From contig RQSC01000619.1 of NCBI GenBank assembly GCA_013416795.1, forward strand, positions 21,845 to 61,977: DNA of 40,133 nt, given 5' to 3'. Below are positions 17,385 through 32,069 of this stretch, piece after piece (positions within the stretch are counted from its first letter, which is position 1; the number at the start of each line of letters is the position of its first letter). The notes beneath the pieces were generated by a model. That model was given only the letters and a program-made list of their open reading frames with translations, had not been told where the DNA came from and made no database searches. Origin of the DNA: Prasinococcaceae sp. CCMP 1430 (Eukaryota; Prasinodermophyta; Palmophyllophyceae; Prasinococcales; Prasinococcaceae). Made by a program: the position numbers and the translations under genes.

Positions 17385-19797
17385 TCATGCGAGCGGGTTG
17401 CAGTTGCACACGAGCGCGCGCAGCCCGAGAGCGAGGAAACTGCCCATGCACAGGCCAATAGTCAGGAACAGCGCCATGAGCCCTCCTCCCTCGTCCCGAA
17501 GCGGCGGCGACAGCCTCTGCGGCGCGTGCATCATCGCTACGGCGCCGAGGTGGCCATTGGTGATCGCCATGACGATGACGAATACCACAGGGTACGCCGG
17601 CTGACCAAAGAGAACGGGCAGGACGCCGCCGTCGCCACCGCCAGCGGTGTCAACTGCGCACAAAAGGAAGAGTGGGATAAACCCCAGGCGCAGAGCGGCC
17701 AGTGCGAGCAGCCACAGGTCGGACGGCGCCTTCTTCGGCCACACGCCTGCTATGAAGCGGCCGAGCGTGTCACCCACGTTGAAGAGCACGAACATGACAG
17801 GAGTGAACATATCACCCGTGATGCGCGGGTCGATAGTCGTCTGCGAGGTCCCAATGGAGGCCACAACGCCTGGAAAGACGCTCAACGTCACCACGAAGAC
17901 CGCCCACGCCGTGCAGGCCGGCGCGCCGAGCCTTCGCACAATGGCCCGCGTGCGCACCCCATTGGTCGCAAGCGCCAGCGGGGCCACGTCGGCGTTCGCC
18001 GACACGTCAAGAGCCTGGCCCCAGCCCACGCCGACACGGAGACGCCTCTCATCATATGCTGACTCACCGGCGTCACCGCGCCAACTCCGCCAGCTCCGTG
18101 GTGACCGGTGCGAGGGTGGCGGTGGCGTATCCAGGGGGCCGTCATCCGAGGGAGTGTCCGTTTCCCACGGGCCGATGCCATGCCCCTGGCTATGCTTTGA
18201 CACGCGCGGCCCGCCGCGCGCGAGCGCGATCGCGGCACTCGTGTCTGAATCGTCGTCGCCCTCATCACTCAGCAGCAATGCCTCCAGATCGTCATGGCCG
18301 CGGCGCGTGCTTCCCAAGAGCGAGCGACTCCGCCGGGGGACCCCGCGAGTGCTCGCCGTGCGCTTCACGAAGCGCATGAAGCGCCCCCCCATCCACATGC
18401 TGTCCCTCTCCATTGCTGCACTCGTCGAGAGCTCGTCGGACAACGACGCCGCGGAAGACTGCGACGCCATTGAATCCTGGTGACGCAAGTCAGCCACCCG
18501 CCCGCGCGCCGAAGCTGGCCCTGCCGATGCCCCGTTGACATCCATGGGCACAGAGCCCGAGCGCGGCCTGCCCGCACCCCATTGCCTGCCGCCGGTGCCA
18601 TTGGCCCCACCTGGCGTGCCCTCGTGAGTTACCGCCCCCTCATCCTCGCTGAGTTGAGTCGAGATTGCTCTGCTACGCTGTGCGTTCTTCCTCGCGTGGT
18701 AGTGCGCGTACGGCAGCAGCGCCAGGCCCGCGAACCCGAGGATGCCCAGCCCGATGACGCCAACCGCAACGACGAAGTACATGAATGCGGGGCCTCGTAC
18801 GTCCTCGATGGTCGGCACCACGTGTGAGGGCGGCCTCAGCCACGACGTAGACGCGGCGGTGACGCTCACCGTCAGCCCTGCTATCCCCTGCCCCCCCATG
18901 AGCGCCTGCGTGTACTTGGGAGGAAAACGCGATGCCAGCCCGAAGACGCCGCCCTGGAGAAGCGCCGTCGCAGTGCCCGCCAGGACGAGCATGGCCGAGA
19001 TAGTGTAGAAGAGACTCTCTGGCGACAGCGCGTCGGTTTTGATGAAGTACGCCGTCATCCCGAACAAGAAGACATTCATGGCGAGCGGAAAGAGCACGCG
19101 CACACTCTCGCGCCATATTGGGCCGTACGTGCCTCTCAGCAGCATCCTACGACGCGCGCGCGCGAGGGAGTGAGTGTGTGTGTGGTGGTGGTGGTGGGGG
19201 AGAAGACGGAAGAGGGGGGCGACAGAAGGGGGGCAAAGAGTTCCGAAGAGCGCCCGCGAAGCCATGCGGGCGGGGTTGGAGCCGGATGTGTTCGAGACGC
19301 GCCATCCGGCGGACAGGCACGATCATGTTGCCATGTCAGCTATCTGGACGTGTCGGCGATTGGCTCTGTGACAGCGCTCGTGCTGTGCGCGGCAGCTGCA
19401 ACAGCGTGCGCGCGAATGGGCGCGAGTGCGGTGCTTAGTGCTGCGTCACCGCAGAGCGTTGCGGCGCGGGGGTGGATTTGGGTGGGGGCCGCAGGACTCA
19501 CCATCGCTGCGTCTGCGGGAAGAGCGTGAAAAGCCCGAGCACGAGCGTGTTGGCCGTCGTGAACGTGACCGCAAAGAGGTCCTCGAAGTTGGTCGCGTGC
19601 GGCGAGCCTTTGAAGCGCACGTAGAAGTACGACGACGCGTTGATGAACGCGTTCCATGGAAAGAGCATGCAGATGCCCATGACGGTGAAGATGACGTACA
19701 CCGCGTACAGCGTGTCCTCGGGCTCCGCCACGAGCCCATCGGCGCCGCCCATGCCGCTGCGTCGCCGCCGCTCTCGCGCGCCCGCGCCCGCCGCCAT
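17385..19797 (-). CDS. Equilibrative nucleoside transporter (ENT/SLC29 family)
   Basis: Two exons (19797-19502, 19146-17385) flank a 355-bp phase-2 intron with a C-rich CCACCAC/CACACA tract before its acceptor; about 685 residues. TM1 carries MGICMLFPWNAFINASSYF, the ENT signature PWN.FI. Later helices include VRVLFPLAMNVFLFGMTAYF, QGGVFGLASRFPPKYTQALM and GQGIAGL, typical of TM3 to TM5. About 11 membrane helices are expected: six before and five after an unusually long (~290-residue) charged Ser/Gly/Asp-rich cytosolic loop between TM6 and TM7. The family moves nucleosides or nucleobases down their gradient across plasma or organelle membranes. The first ATG (19797) overlaps the start codon of the opposite gene; the second in-frame ATG at 19752 would still keep TM1. 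Confidence 0.88.
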
Positions 19798-24926: not shown

Positions 24927-27280
24927 TCACCAGTCATCGCCGCTGCCGCTGCCGCTCTCTGCATCCCAGTCGCAGTCTATCTCCGTCGCCTGACGCTGCA
25001 GCTCGGCCAGACCAGTGAGCTCCTCGAGGTACGCGGGCTCGTTGAACGCGCGCAGCAGGAACTCCTCGGGGGCGGCCTGGTACGCGGCGACCACCTTATC
25101 GGAGCAGGCCGTGCAGCAGTCGTACGCTGCGCCTGCCACAGGCAATTGCTGGAGCGAGCCGAGGAAGCCACGCAACTGGTGGGGCAGAGCTCCCAGTGGC
25201 GAGCGCGCGTCGCGCTCCTCGGCGGCCAGTCCACTAGCACCGCCACTGGCGGGCGCCGCCGCGCCCTCGGGGTGGTGCACCATCGCCACGAGCATCTCCA
25301 CAGCGAGCGCGCCCGCGATGGGGGCGAGGCCCGGCCGAGTGACCGTGCACTGCTGGTCGAGCGTGCGGTACTTGGTGGAGTCGAGCGGCGCCACGACATC
25401 GTTGCAGAAGTAGCATCCTAGGCGCGTGGTGCCGTCGGCCATCGCACGCCCAGCGCTCGAGGCGAGCGCTGCGTTGCGTTGCGCGGCGTCGTCGCCCGAA
25501 GGCGCGCTCCGCTGGGCGCATCCTGCGGCGACGCCATGGCGCATCACTGCGGTGTCGATGGGAAGCGCGGAGTCAGTTATTTGCCACACATGCGCGCGAC
25601 GGGGCGTCGAACATACGAAGGCAGGCGTCGCGCGCTTTCGAGCGCGCCTCCGAGGGGGCGCGCAAGGCCGCGCCTGCTCTATCCAGACGTACCGACGTAC
25701 GAGTCGAAGCCAAGTGCCGTGTTGAACATCGGCCGCCCCATCGCCGAGCAGAGCAGGGTGGGAAGCCAGCGGCTCTCACGCGTGTCCGTGAGCACAAACA
25801 CGGCGTCGTGCTCCTCGATGAGATTCCTCAACTTTGCCGCGCTGGCGAGCGCGGCGTTCGCCTCAGCGCCACCAGTCTCGCCAACATCGTGTCCCGGCAT
25901 GGGAATGTAGAGCTCGTGCGCGCAGGGGCGCGCCCCGGGGAATATTTTTGAGAGCGCCTCGGCGGCCGCCTCTGCCTTGGGCCTGCCGCCGTTCTTGCAG
26001 TCTTCGAAATTGTACAGACTTTGCCTCACAGGGTTCGAATAGGACACGCGAGCGCAGTCGGTGAGGGTCACGTGGCGCACGCCCCATGCGAGCAACCCAC
26101 GCGCCACCGCGCAGCCCAGCGTGCCTGCGCCGAGCAGCAGGCAACGCGTGCGCTGCAGCGCCTCCGTGTCGAGCTCAGGGAGCACTCGCCAGCGCATGAG
26201 CTTGAGGTTGAGGTCCGCCGCCTGCTCAGCGAGGCGCACGGGGTCCATGATGGCCCCGAGATCTGCCACGCGCGGCGCGGCCTTGCCCTTCGCGTTGCGC
26301 TCCCACGCGCGCCCGAGGCGCGGCATCGGTCCGTCGGTCGGTACATGCGGCACCTCGAGGTCCATGACGAGCGAGGTAGCCGCACACATGCGCCCGCGGG
26401 CCTCGCGCACACACAGCAGGCGCATCCTCGCCGACCCTCCCTCGGGCGCCCAGCGAGCGCCGGCAAGCGTGAGCAGGTTGCGCACGGGCCACGACGCCAC
26501 GCCGGGCTCCTCGCATGGGTCGAAGGCGGCCACCAGCAGGCGGCCATTGCTCGCGTCGTTGCCGTCGCGCAAGGCCTCGCCCGCCTCGGCGAGGCTCACC
26601 CGCGCCCATGAGCCGTCCTCACCGCGTATCAAGCCGCACGCGCCGAGCCCACCGCCGTCGGCCCCGTCGCGCATTGCCTCGGTATGCGCCGCGCGCCATT
26701 CGGCGACGGCGTCCGCAAGCGCTGCCGCGTCGACGCCGCAGTCGGAAGCCTCTTCGACGGCGCGTGACGCCAGCAGTTGGGCGGGATGCTCGAGCGCAAA
26801 GCACGGCGCTGCCAGCCAGTGGTAGAAGCGCCATTTCTTCAGGTCGGCGTGCGCGAGCATCGCGAACCGACCCAGCAGCCAGGGCGCGCGCTCGGCGGCG
26901 CCCGAGGTGATGTCGTCCCACAACCGCCCCGCGGCGCCCTTCACGAGCGCGGTGCGGTCAAACTCCTTGAACGCCTCCAGCGTGTTGACGTTCACGAGCA
27001 CGCCCGGCGCTGGGAAGCGGTTCGACGGGCATGCCGACGGGTCCGCCTCAACACCGCCGTCGCCGCTACTGCCGCTGGCGCCCGCAGCAGCGGCCGCGGT
27101 CGCGGCGGTGCCGAGCGCGCCCGACGAGACCTGCAGCAGTCGCGCGCCGGGCGCGGCGTGCGCGGCGAGCGCGAGCGGCCGCTCGCTCAGCCGCAGCGCG
27201 TCGAGCTTGAGCCGCGCGAGCTCCGCCCACAGCGCGACGTCCACGGACGACGCCCACGGCGAGAACTGCAGCGGTGCCAT
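24927..27280 (-). CDS. ATG7: ATG7, E1-like activating enzyme of autophagy
   Basis: Two exons (27280-25693, 25546-24927) with a 146-bp phase-1 intron that restores GFDSYV|VMRHG; about 735 residues. The N-terminal domain begins LQFSPWASSVDVALWAEL and contains VNVNTLEAFKEFDR. The adenylation domain has LNLKLMRWRVLP, the nucleotide loop LLLGAGTLGCAVARGL, and SNPVRQSLYNFEDC. LGCYFCNDVVAP is the zinc-binding pair. The catalytic cysteine is in RTLDQQCTVTRPGLAP (about Cys596). The C-terminus ends in an acidic stretch with a final Trp, as in ATG7 tails that hold ATG8. It activates ATG8 and ATG12 for conjugation in the cytosol. A Gly/Ala/Ser-rich insert lies at ~55-80. The ATG at 27280 gives the canonical N-terminus and is 168 bp from the divergent start of the GPCR-permease gene. 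Confidence 0.93.
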
Positions 27281-27448
27281 CTCTGCGCCCCGCGCGCTTC
27301 GGGAGGCGGCAGCAGGGCGCCGCGCCGCGCCTGCGCTGCCGCGCCTGCGCTGTGTGGCAGGGCCCGCGCTGCACGCCGAGCGTTTTTGTTTTTGTGACAG
27401 GTGGACCAGAGTCTGGCAGCCACGCGGACCCGCGCGGAGGCGCGACGC
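27281..27448. promoter_or_regulatory. Putative bidirectional promoter of ATG7 and the GPCR-permease fusion
   Basis: 168 bp separate the two divergent ATG codons. The only AT-rich element is GTTTTTGTTTTTGTGACAG at ~27381-27400. Its end also looks like a splice acceptor, so the plus-strand gene may have a short non-coding first exon. Shared regulation is inferred from the arrangement. Confidence 0.45.
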
Positions 27449-30142
27449 ATGGCAGACGGCGCGCGTGCCGCGGACGCGGCGCCGCCGCCGGGGCGGCGCG
27501 AAGTTGGGAGTCGCGTGGGGCGCGGCAGGCGGGGTGTCATGTCCGCGGCCGCGCTCGACTACGGCGACTACGAGTACGGCGGCGCGAACAGCACGGCACA
27601 TGCGTACGCGCACTTGCTCTCCGAGGGCGAAGTGCGCGCGCTGGCGCGCGCCAGCGTCGCCGTGTCGGCGGTATCCTTCGCGACATGCGGCGCGCTGGTG
27701 GCGTGCTACGCGGTGCTTCCCGAGCTTCGCCAGTTCGCCTTCACGCTCGTGGCACTGCTGTGCGTGTGCGACGGCTGCGCGGCTGCGACTAACTTGCTCG
27801 GTGCCCCGGCCGACGGCTCGGCGCTGTGTGAGATGCAAGCGGTGCTGGGCTCGTTCTTCAGCCTGGCCGCGGTGCTGTGGACAGCGGTGATCGCATCGGT
27901 GTTGAAGCAGGGCGTCGTCAGCCCCCAGGCGCTGGGCAATATGCGGAAGCGCGCGTACGCCTACCACCTCTTCTGCTGGGGCACGGCGGCGGCCGCCGCG
28001 TGCCTTCCCGCGCTCACGGCGAGCTACGGCGCCGCGGGCGCCGTGTGCTGGATCGTCGGCTCGGCGCTTGGACAGGCCCTGCGCTTCGTGACGTTTTACT
28101 TTCCGCTATACTTGGTCATCGCCTACAATGCGTGGGCGTATTGGAGCGTGGTACAGGTCGTCAGGAGCGCGCGCGGACTCGCCGACGAGGAGCGGAGGCG
28201 CGCCGCCGCGCTTCTCTCTTACCCAGCCATACTCCTCGTGGCGTGGGCGGGCGGCACGCTGAATCGTCTCCACAACTGGGCCTACCCAGGCCAACCCAGC
28301 TTCGGGCTGTACATGGTAGCCACGGTGATGGGCGCTTCGCAGGGGTTGATGCACGCGGTGGCGTTCGGCGCCACGCGCGCTGTGCGCGATGCGCTCGCGC
28401 GGTGGCGCAGCGAGGTGAAGGCGGGCGGCTGGCGCGGCGCAGGTGCGCGCGCCGCGCTCGCAGCGAGGCGGGGCAGGGCGGGCGAGGGTCTGGAGATGCA
28501 GAGCCTCAAGCGCAAGGATGGTGGGGAGGGCGGCGCCCGACTGGGCCTGCTCGGAGACGACCTCGACTCGGGTGGTGGTGGACTCGTGGATGTGTCGAGC
28601 CAAGTGCGCTCCGCGCACGTGGCTGCGCTCGGCATCTACGAGTCGTTGTCATTGCTGAGTTCGCAGAGCGTACTGGCGTACGAGGCGCTCGCCGCCGCCG
28701 GTCGCGGCACCAAGAGCGGCGGCGAGCACGGCGACGCTCGCGGGAAGGGTGACAGCTTCGCCACGGCCGTGACGCTCATCAAGAGCTTCATCGGCCTCGG
28801 CATTTTAGCCTTTCCGAAGGCATTTTCCGCCGTCGGCTACGTCGGCGGATGTGTTGGCGTTCTCGTCATCGCGGGGGTCTCGCTGCATGGCATGCAGCTG
28901 CTGCTCGATGTTCAGGCGCGGCTATCCTCCGGGCGAAATGGCGCTTCGAGAAGTGCTGGGAACGGCATCGCGGGCGATGGGAAGCCTGCTGGCGGGCTGC
29001 AGTCGTACGAGCTCGTGAGTCACAGCGACGCGCGCGAGTGTGATGCCGGCGAAGGCATCACCGCAGACGAGGGTGGCGCGAGTGAGGCGGGCCCACGTGA
29101 GCGCGCGAGCCGCACGCTCGACTCGTACACGGCGCTCGGCGAGGCGGTGTGGGGCTCGGCCGGTAGGAAAATCGTCGAATTCGGCCTTTTCACAAGTCAA
29201 GTGGGATTTGGCACGGCCTATCTGATTTTCATCGGACACAACGTGTTCAGCGTCATCCCCGAGCTGGGCTCGCCGCAGGCCGCGACCCTACTCGCTACTC
29301 TTTTTCTGTACTTTCCCTGCTGCCTGCCGGATGTGAGGCGACTAGCGTCGACCAGCCTCGTCGCGAACGCGCTCACGGTCTTCAGCCTAGGCTTCGTCTT
29401 GTACTGCGCTCTCAAGGTACTGCGTGCCAACGGGCACCAAACGCGGGCGGAATTCGCGCAACTCGGCGTGGAGCCCCTGCGCGTCGCGGGCGGACCGTAC
29501 TTTTTTGCCAGCACCGTCTTCGCTTTCGAAGGCATCGGGCTGGTGCTGCCCGTGCAGCAATCGATGCAGCGGCCGCAGGAGCTGCCGGGCATGCTCCGCT
29601 ACACCGTTGTTTCGGTCGCCGTCGTCATGTTGTGTCTGGGCGGTTTCTGCTACCTCGCGTGGGGGGACGCGACACGAGACATGATAACGCTGAATTTGCC
29701 GCAGGACAGCGTGCTATCCGCGATGGTGAAGCTCATTTACTCCTTCGCCCTCGGACTTACCTACCCCTTGCAGCTTTTGCCTGCTTTCCGCATTGTCGAG
29801 GACTCGGGCCTGCTGGACCGCCTCGTCGTGCCCCCGTCGCTCGAGGCGTCCATGCCAAGGCTGCGCATCAACGTCATGCGCGTCTGCCTCGTGACCGTGA
29901 CGTCCGTGGTGGCTGCTCTCACTCCACATTTTGGCCTTTTCGTGAATCTCGTCGGCGCCGTGAGCTGCAGCCTTCTCGCGTTCATCCTGCCCGCAGCGAT
30001 GCACTTCGGCTTCGGCGCGACGCGGGCTGTGCGTGCGAAGGACGGCCTTCTGATCCTCTTCGGGATCGCGGGGGGCGCCGTGTCCTTCGTATTGACAGTG
30101 AAGGAGCTGATTGCAGCGTTCGCCGCTGGCGGTGGGGACTAG
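27449..30142 (+). CDS. Fusion of a 7TM cAMP-receptor-like GPCR with an 11TM AAAP amino-acid permease
   Basis: One uninterrupted frame, about 897 residues from the first ATG (27449; 27539 is a second choice). Residues ~67-310 form seven hydrophobic helices in the pattern of class E/cAMP-receptor-like GPCRs: a Cys at the top of TM3 (LCEMQAVLGSFFSLAAVLW, Cys127), FCWGT in TM4, VCWIVG in the second outer loop (Cys200, the usual disulphide partner), FYFPLYLVIAYN in TM5 and a Leu-Asn turn in TM6. Residues ~311-434 are a basic then Gly/Ser-rich linker. From ~435 comes an AAAP (SLC36/SLC38-like) transporter: TLIKSFIGLGILAFPKAF is the TM1 signature, followed by about ten more helices, with a ~75-residue loop insert after TM2. 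It would be an 18-helix membrane protein, perhaps an amino-acid transceptor (inference). No stop, and only one Met, lies in the linker. Confidence 0.82.
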   Translation: MADGARAADAAPPPGRREVGSRVGRGRRGVMSAAALDYGDYEYGGANSTAHAYAHLLSEGEVRALARASVAVSAVSFATCGALVACYAVLPELRQFAFTLVALLCVCDGCAAATNLLGAPADGSALCEMQAVLGSFFSLAAVLWTAVIASVLKQGVVSPQALGNMRKRAYAYHLFCWGTAAAAACLPALTASYGAAGAVCWIVGSALGQALRFVTFYFPLYLVIAYNAWAYWSVVQVVRSARGLADEERRRAAALLSYPAILLVAWAGGTLNRLHNWAYPGQPSFGLYMVATVMGASQGLMHAVAFGATRAVRDALARWRSEVKAGGWRGAGARAALAARRGRAGEGLEMQSLKRKDGGEGGARLGLLGDDLDSGGGGLVDVSSQVRSAHVAALGIYESLSLLSSQSVLAYEALAAAGRGTKSGGEHGDARGKGDSFATAVTLIKSFIGLGILAFPKAFSAVGYVGGCVGVLVIAGVSLHGMQLLLDVQARLSSGRNGASRSAGNGIAGDGKPAGGLQSYELVSHSDARECDAGEGITADEGGASEAGPRERASRTLDSYTALGEAVWGSAGRKIVEFGLFTSQVGFGTAYLIFIGHNVFSVIPELGSPQAATLLATLFLYFPCCLPDVRRLASTSLVANALTVFSLGFVLYCALKVLRANGHQTRAEFAQLGVEPLRVAGGPYFFASTVFAFEGIGLVLPVQQSMQRPQELPGMLRYTVVSVAVVMLCLGGFCYLAWGDATRDMITLNLPQDSVLSAMVKLIYSFALGLTYPLQLLPAFRIVEDSGLLDRLVVPPSLEASMPRLRINVMRVCLVTVTSVVAALTPHFGLFVNLVGAVSCSLLAFILPAAMHFGFGATRAVRAKDGLLILFGIAGGAVSFVLTVKELIAAFAAGGGD

Positions 30143-30275
30143 CCGGCTCGCGGCGCGGGCGCGCGGCGGATGGAAGCGGGGGCGGAGGAGGCAAAGGCGG
30201 AGGCGGAGGCGGGAGCGACCCCATCTGTTGTAATAATGTGTACCAAATTACGATTCGTGAGTTCGAGGCAGGCGC
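30143..30275. other. Convergent 3' spacer
   Basis: 133 bp between the stop of the fusion gene and the stop of the RUS gene. TGTACC with TTGTAATAATG lies at ~30228-30244. No gene seen. Confidence 0.4.
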
Positions 30276-31974
30276 TCACGCGCATGTGACGTACGACGCC
30301 TGCGTTTCCGAAAGCTTGAAGTGGGTGGTGTTCCACCCTGCCGCCACGAGCGCCTCCATGAGCTCGCTCGTGTGTTTGTCGGCGAAGAGTTTGCTCTACG
30401 GTCGTCGTGAGAGGGGTTGAGGCGGGCGAGACCGTACGTGCAGCGTCAGAGGCTTGTGACGCGCGAAACATCGGCAGAGCGGCGCGGCTTCGCTGCGAGT
30501 CGCGAGCGCACGTACCTCCTTCTGGAGCCTGCGCATATTATCCATCGCCGCCTCGTGTCCGCTCACGCGCTTGCCTGCCGCGTCCTGCTCGCCGAGCGCC
30601 CTGCGGAGGTGTGCCGCCTCCAGCACGCCGCGCAGTACGGCGTGCGCCGAGCTCACGGCGCCTTCCCCGAGCACGAGAGAGGCGGTGCGCTCGCCGGTGC
30701 GCGGGTCCACGTGCGCCACCAGCGCGCTCCCGCAGTCGCGCGCGTCCTCTGCCACCGCACGCAGCTCCGCCTCGAAGCGCATGTGCGCCACCGGCAGCGC
30801 GCCGACGCTCAGGCGCAGCACGCGCTCGCCGGGGCGCCGTCCGGGCATCACCGGTTCCACGAGCGCAACTTCGCGAGCTGTGGGTGCAGCCACGGGCACA
30901 CTCGAGAGTTTGCGCTTGCCACCGCCACCACCGCCATCGCCACCGCCGCTCAGCCATCGCCACATGCGACCTGCGACGCATCGCGCAGGGGCACGAGAGC
31001 GCGTCAGCGCGCGGGCAACGCGCTGGTGTGAGGCTGGGCCGCATCAAAGAATCGCCGCGCGCGCTTGTAGCTGGCAACGCACCTCCACTACCTCTATCGC
31101 CTCCTACCGCGCCTCGAGTGTGCGCGCCTCCCGCTGCACCGCCGCCGCCCGCGCCGCCCCCCCTGCGCAGCCACTCGTCCGCGGCGAGTTCGGCGCGCGT
31201 CACGTTGAGCGTGCGCAGCGCGACCGCGCGCAGCTCGTTGCGGATGCAGAACATGTCGAGACCGGCGAGCACGGGGTATGCGGCGAAGGGCATCAGAGTG
31301 ACCGCCGCCTTGGAGGGCGAGACGTGCGCCCACCACTTGCTCAGGCCCACCGCGAGCGCGAGGCCGACGTTGTCGGCCACCACCTGCTGGGCCTGGTTCT
31401 TGGCGGAGACGTCAGCCATGTTCTCGGACATGGCGAACGAGCGGTGAATGGCCGGGGTGATGGACATTGACGTCGACACGCCGATGGACTTGCCAATGTT
31501 GGCGACGGTCGCGAGCACGAGGAAGTGCTGCGGCACGAGCGCGGTCGTGAACTCGAGCGCGTGCGCCACGTTGTACACCACGCTCGAGCTGAATCGGTAC
31601 TGCTTGAGGTCCGCGTCGAACGACGAGCCCAGTCGTGTGGAGACCGCCAGCTTGCCCAGGCGGCCGAGGCCGTCCTTCAGCACCCAGTTCACGACCGCCG
31701 CCGCGGCCAGCCCGCGCTCGGCGCCGATGCCGATGGCGTACAGCATCTGCTGCGTGGCGAGCACGTTGAGCATGGAGCTCGCCACGCGCTGGCAGCAGCG
31801 CCAGCGCGCATACTCCCAGTAGTCGGAGGTCACGTTTGCCGGGAGGAAGGCGCGCTGCACCGCACGCCACGCGGCGGCGGCACCGCCGCCGTCCGCTCCC
31901 TCGGCGCCGCTCGAGGCTTCGCCCGCGGCGGAGCGCGCGGGCACGAGCCGTGCCCACGCTGCGCTCAGGCGCAC
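30276..31974 (-). CDS. RUS/DUF647 family protein (root UVB sensitive), 5' end unresolved
   Basis: Three exons (31974 or further to 31083, 30970-30516, 30395-30276), phases 1 and 0. The first contains FLPANVTSDYWEYARWRCCQ, AAVVNWVLKDGLGRLGKL, SSFDADLKQYRF, VPQHFLVLATVANIGKS and KNQAQQVVADNVGLALAVGL, the conserved run of the DUF647 domain. Exon 2 is a variable region with RPGERVLRLSVGALPVAH. Exon 3 gives the family's C-terminal SELMEALVAAGWNTTHFKL. Plant RUS1/RUS2 are plastid-linked and act in UV-B and vitamin-B6-related seedling responses; the molecular activity is unknown. Several hydrophobic segments suggest membrane association. The coordinate 31974 is a GTG, and an in-frame stop lies 5 codons upstream, so a 5' exon is missing. 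One candidate is an ATG near 32055 read in another frame and spliced by a very short intron; I do not rely on it. Confidence 0.85.
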
Positions 31975-32069
31975 GCCGGCGCATCAAGTGGCGCACCTTG
32001 TCTTCGTGCCGACGTCCGCCCCCGCGGCGGCCTCCGCCACCGCGGATGGGGCCATCCCACCCCACCCGC

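Follow-up and report, generated by a model that had tools for sequence, protein, structure and literature searches.

The locus raises the question of whether a G-protein-coupled receptor (GPCR) and an amino-acid permease are really joined in one protein and, if so, what such a protein could do. In the window, that is the whole stretch of 40,133 nucleotides analysed here, the plus strand carries a stop-to-stop frame of 914 codons without a stop (27398-30142), in which the coding sequence of the GPCR-AAAP fusion occupies 27449..30142 (+) as a single open frame, giving 897 aa when read from the Met at 27449 and 867 aa from the Met at 27539. Both in-frame ATGs are candidate starts; the second (27539..27541, +) corresponds, in the alignment, to the first residue of the near-identical protein P0002 (867 aa), which begins 30 residues later, and is followed by a short N-terminus bearing an N-S-T sequon. 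The first-pass annotation had described a GPCR-like seven-helix (7TM) domain, a linker, and an AAAP permease in one frame, and on this arrangement the frame, Pfam, and AlphaFold2 agree. It had also recommended Pfam and AlphaFold on the full frame and a search for the same domain order elsewhere; both domains score above their cut-offs and both folds are predicted. An NCBIfam search returned no match.

The strong evidence for the fusion is the domain order repeated in diverged proteins and not the length of the frame. The GC content of the window is 68%, and codon position 2 has the lowest GC of the three across all 50-codon bins of the fusion frame, including those of the linker, a pattern expected of a coding frame. 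The whole frame remained open in 0 of 5000 mononucleotide shuffles; the linker segment by itself remained open in 9% of 5000, and little can be concluded from the absence of stops in it.

The N-terminal half is a predicted 7TM GPCR-like domain with a helix 8 (residues 59-324; 27623..28420, +). Pfam recognizes PF05462 (Dicty_CAR, the cAMP-receptor GPCR family) at residues 76-306 with 34 bits against a cut-off of 21 (2.3e-8), and the diverged members reach 41-78 bits in the Pfam scan. In the AlphaFold2 model of the full protein (mean pLDDT 76, pTM 0.64), seven GPCR helices are followed by a helix-8-like segment (310-324), and by fold comparison the 7TM part resembles G-protein-coupled adhesion and Frizzled receptors. 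The Cys pair between TM3 and ECL2 is well preserved, with Cys 127 kept in 5/5 and Cys 200 in 6/6 covering rows of an eight-row alignment, the near-copy P0002 being one of these rows; the pair and many other 7TM residues are invariant across the four full-length GPCR rows compared, and identity among the 7TM sequences goes down to 33-41%. The earlier attribution of the Cys pair and the helix pattern to a cAMP-receptor-like GPCR was borne out by the profile match and by the retained cysteines.

The same genome also contains a free-standing cAMP-receptor-like 7TM paralogue (L004, contig C104:26531-27331, in a 351-codon frame), and a permease was not found in the available C104 sequence around it. 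The GPCR half of the window protein scores higher with its fused counterparts in P0007 (179 bits), P0013 (164 bits), and P0008 (158 bits) than with the C104 paralogue (122 bits); being nearer to the fused halves than to the paralogue of its own genome, it suggests that receptor and permease have travelled together, and the two appear, from these sequences, to be co-inherited. The PF05462 search of the genome found only the C104 paralogue and missed the 7TM domain of the window, which points to a limited sensitivity, so that negatives from own-genome profile searches count for less.

The C-terminal half corresponds to a predicted 11-helix AAAP permease (residues 436-893; 28754..30127, +) with the TM1 signature KSFIGLGILAFP and a cytosolic insert between TM2 and TM3. 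PF01490 (Aa_trans) matches it with 205 bits against a cut-off of 25.6 (2e-60, best stretch 553-854), and in the AlphaFold2 model its helices can be counted as the 11 of an AAAP, with TM1 and TM6 broken; the description of a complete 11-helix permease with its TM1 signature thus holds. PAT1 is the best match by sequence among solved structures and SLC38A9 is among the best by fold, and the permease half can be assigned, on sequence grounds, to the SLC36/AVT kind of AAAPs as a putative transporter. Both the GPCR fold and the AAAP fold are also predicted by AlphaFold2 for a relative that is ~37% identical. The insert between TM2 and TM3 (28946-29125) is a low-confidence stretch of ~60 residues whose length varies among the relatives.

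The two halves are connected by a predicted cytosolic linker (residues 325-435; 28421..28753, +), mostly of low model confidence; from the end of TM7 to TM1 of the AAAP, cut as in this analysis, there are 123 residues, close to the ~125 estimated at first. Within it lies a conserved motif, LVDVSSQVRSAHVAALGIYESLSLL (residues 379-403; 28583..28657, +), predicted as a helix at low confidence and common to all seven GPCR-bearing rows. A motif profile derived from six members, with the window protein and P0002 excluded, gives 17.4 bits against the window linker (the best among 2000 shuffles reaches 7.3) and, in the six-frame translation of the window, picks out the fusion frame as best with 13.4, the next being 2.8; the best score against AAAPs outside the clade described below or non-fusion AAAPs is 0.5. 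Since the linker is weak in both AlphaFold2 models, the interface between the halves is not derivable from either.

Relatives were collected with the AAAP half by scoring the 8000 proteins that share most words with it, among candidates of 0.55-1.75 times the query length. This search yielded 42 proteins at 1e-10, five of which (P0002, P0005, P0007, P0008, and P0013) have both Pfam domains. P0002 is a near-copy from other records, 99% identical with 6/867 residues different; in the four diverged proteins, P0005 (EukProt), P0007, P0008, and P0013, our own Pfam scan confirmed both domains in the same order, and P0004 shows, by alignment, GPCR TM5-7 followed by linker and permease, so the search for the domain order elsewhere had a positive outcome. 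The diverged rows are 33-39% identical to the window protein in the alignment. P0007 (913 aa) is the sole full-length diverged member, and its N-terminus can be read as a signal peptide, which would be consistent with an N-out orientation; P0005 lacks the part before TM4 and P0004 that before TM5, and P0008 and P0013 break off within the permease. With the GPCR half as query, P0002 was the sole protein recovered at E 0.1 among 8000 scored candidates, a result that by itself would have pointed to no relatives; the whole-protein search likewise gave only P0002, and no relative was found in the viral contigs and phages searched.

A tree was built from 44 AAAP rows, consisting of 40 of 43 proteins and four of the 11 own-genome AAAP loci tried, those with an open frame passing the filter; P0010, P0016, and P0039, long or partial Amoebophrya-like proteins, were omitted. 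All seven GPCR-bearing rows fall within one nine-row AAAP clade (100/99); the transporters of oomycetes, fungi, and animals and the four AAAPs included from the same genome lie elsewhere in the tree. The two other rows of the clade, P0003 and P0006, have no GPCR in their gene models. P0003, which we read as a truncated fusion, is sister to P0004 (100/97), and in the alignment its start falls in the tail that follows TM7 in P0004. P0006 begins in the linker and is placed in a part of the clade lacking resolved branching; a few residues of its N-terminus look like the motif by eye, and it is absent from the 12 best matches of the linker profile. A clade made of the fusion members by themselves was rejected (p-AU 2.6e-36), because P0003 groups with P0004 and P0006 sits where branching is not resolved. 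A single origin of the fusion, combined with truncated gene models or followed by two losses, fits the tree, a multiple origin is possible too, and the fusion looks like a genuine protein family.

An artefact, due to misassembly or to chance read-through of two adjacent genes, deserves hardly any weight: the ease with which the linker alone stays open in shuffled sequences would speak for it, but P0002 comes from other records and the diverged proteins share both the domain order and the linker motif, and it is these relatives, not the frame length, that rule out a join. As judged from the sequences compared, neither a wrongly assembled junction nor a fortuitous open frame explains the fusion, and one chain combining a 7TM receptor domain with an AAAP permease is predicted from the frame with near certainty. 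It is quite improbable, too, that the frame gives rise to two proteins, with receptor and permease detached from each other through cleavage, internal starts, or separate transcripts. The in-frame ATG at 28496 (Met 350), which precedes the linker motif in the window protein, could serve as the start of an independent AAAP, two of the nine clade members lack a called GPCR, and cleavage is possibly compatible with the sequence evidence. However, P0013 has no Met from TM7 to the motif, so that the motif is hardly readable there except behind the receptor, P0004 has a single Met (M110) in the tail directly after TM7, and the start of P0003 lies where that of a truncated fusion would be expected. 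Furthermore, TGTAA, which we take to be a possible green-algal polyadenylation signal, occurs on the plus strand within 27300-30700 only after the AAAP, at 30229..30233 (+), 87 bases past the stop; with nine such pentamers on this strand in the whole window, it lends weak support to one transcript.

With the single chain preferred, the next point is the route by which it could act. The first-pass annotation had proposed a direct coupling to G-protein signalling, and the genome did not sustain this proposal. The assembly (24.5 Mb, 145 contigs), which may be incomplete, was searched in six frames, exon by exon. Proteasome subunits, for which 14 loci are expected, served as a rough completeness check and gave 12 loci (13 matches, two of which in one gene on C107). 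The G-alpha profile (PF00503) had five matches (L029, L030, L031, L032, and L033), all of them Arf-family small GTPases, with 129-239 bits for PF00025 versus 28-59 bits for PF00503. A heterotrimeric G-alpha was not found in this six-frame search, a weak negative given the possibly incomplete assembly and the exon-by-exon procedure, and RGS had no match in the genome profile search, run without a positive control. The genome keeps 7TM receptors alongside a G-alpha search that gave only Arf-family GTPases. A Rag-family search produced eight weak matches, the best of 36 bits, and the five places scanned comprised four Arf-family members and one Ras/Roc; on these sequences, neither the classical G-protein pathway nor the Rag pathway used by the animal AAAP sensors finds support in this genome, although both are possible. 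The nucleotide cyclase domain has nine matches, so that cyclic-nucleotide signalling is possible, NPR2 had no match in the genome (again without a positive control), and PIP5K has one locus. Some of the cyclase matches (L044, L045, and L046) lie within very long open frames of 1830, 1644, and 4867 codons.

These data bear on the remaining explanations, all of which accept a real fusion. In one, considered unlikely, the 7TM half would be a true GPCR fed by the AAAP half, a transceptor that informs heterotrimeric G proteins of incoming substrate. The PF05462 match, the resemblance of the model to adhesion and Frizzled receptors, and the cyclase domains (cyclases being often regulated by G proteins) agree with it, and a G-alpha gene may lie outside the assembled sequence or have diverged too far to be recognized; against it stand the five matches that score far better as Arf and the lack of an RGS match, and signalling through a heterotrimeric G protein is probably not in operation in this organism. 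To a similarly low degree of credence, the 7TM half could be chiefly a module for targeting, dimerization, or stability attached to an ordinary transporter. That ligand binding and coupling are hypothetical, and that the 7TM sequences diverge so widely, would suit such a role, but the invariant Cys pair and 7TM residues of the four rows and the conserved motif exceed the needs of a mere anchor. We consequently favour, with a probability of about 45%, a receptor-gated transporter of amino acids or amino-acid-like compounds, coupled within one chain; a direct coupling between the halves is favoured because no G-alpha was found.

In this receptor-gated transporter, one membrane protein of ~18 TM helices would comprise an N-out 7TM domain, a cytosolic linker with the helical motif, and a C-terminal AAAP, a topology and a membrane location predicted from sequence. 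Since the cytosol is the side on which 7TM receptors end and AAAPs start, the chain could thread through the membrane without an extra helix. In the scheme that we infer, either a ligand on the 7TM half would alter transport or a substrate on the AAAP half, an amino acid or an amino-acid-like compound, would alter the 7TM half, and the linker motif would be the moving part that transmits the signal inside the molecule, much as the transporter and the receptor of LYCHOS are proposed to be linked in the available descriptions of that protein. The structure of SLC38A9 (7kgv), as far as its accessible description goes, has an N-terminus that plugs the transport pathway and thus provides a precedent, in the AAAP fold, for an N-terminal segment controlling the pore.

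The idea of a GPCR-transporter hybrid is already known. GPR155/LYCHOS, a lysosomal cholesterol sensor, is described in the consulted parts of the literature as a PIN-like transporter followed by a 7TM and a DEP domain (PMC11574030; PMC12716839), and like the algal fusion it unites, in one chain, a GPCR-like 7TM with a domain resembling secondary transporters; in the same sources, its coupling to G proteins is likewise doubtful. The differences concern the transporter, which in those accounts of LYCHOS is PIN-like, of 10 helices, and N-terminal, whereas in the alga it is an AAAP of 11 helices at the C-terminus, the N-terminal half being the 7TM; the receptor, adhesion/secretin-like without the usual disulfide in LYCHOS and cAMP-receptor-like with the Cys pair in the alga; and the DEP domain at the C-terminus of LYCHOS, for which no Pfam match up to E 1 was obtained in the algal fusion. 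The first-pass annotation had not known of a GPCR-permease fusion; LYCHOS is a published hybrid of a transporter and a GPCR, built from other families and in the reverse order.

SLC38A9 and SLC36A1/PAT1 belong to the same transporter family as the permease half and act, according to the portions of the literature available, as amino-acid sensors for mTORC1; to our knowledge, neither of them carries a 7TM domain. Members of the cAR family, presented as short-termini GPCRs in the accessible text of PMC12716839, have PF05462, the Cys pair, and the 7TM in common with the algal fusion, which adds an 11-helix permease. GPCR-bigrams of oomycetes and other protists (GPCR-PIPK, -INPP, -AC, -PDE, -TKL, and AP-GPCR), in the sections consulted, likewise join an N-terminal GPCR to a C-terminal functional domain in microbial eukaryotes (PMC6033456; PMC5784254), but their second domain is catalytic (PMC6033456) and that of the alga is a membrane transporter: by Pfam, the fusion has the N-terminal GPCR of the oomycete definition and lacks a C-terminal catalytic accessory domain. 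The bigram inventory, as partly available, was restricted to models of 5-9 TM regions and dropped transporters (PMC5784254), and for both reasons would not have kept such a protein. No description of the pairing of a cAMP-receptor-type 7TM with an AAAP, or of this order, was found in the open-licence literature; the pairing, the order, and the presence in several microbial eukaryote sequences are apparently new with respect to the literature searched.

If the coupling were true, a receptor would govern nutrient entry without second messengers, the protein would be a test case for 7TM domains acting without G proteins, and the LYCHOS arrangement would not be a lone oddity of animals and their relatives. 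A published idea, in the part of the source available, is that GPCRs may derive from nutrient transceptors (PMC5890159), and the physical joining of receptor and transporter makes questions related to it testable. As a more speculative and rather doubtful extension, such proteins might be old and widespread receptor-gated nutrient carriers of microbial eukaryotes, in which the 7TM gates the permease through the linker without a G protein; the LYCHOS principle would then have been invented twice, independently and from different components.

As for the surroundings, the first part of a divergently transcribed ATG7 gene (25679..27280, -; ATG7_N 8.3e-65, ThiF 4.4e-30) has its Met at 27280, 168 bases from the fusion start at 27449 or 258 bases from that at 27539, so that the two genes share an upstream region; the head-to-head position of an autophagy gene and a nutrient-carrier candidate may be due to chance. 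On the 3' side, a convergent UVB_sens_prot (RUS-like) gene lies at 30538-31983 (-). The window also encodes another membrane carrier, a nucleoside transporter (17385-19322, -). In the genome there are 22 light-harvesting matches, one of which (L035) has its nearest solved structures among the chlorophyll a/b types, and a green plastid is likely on sequence grounds.
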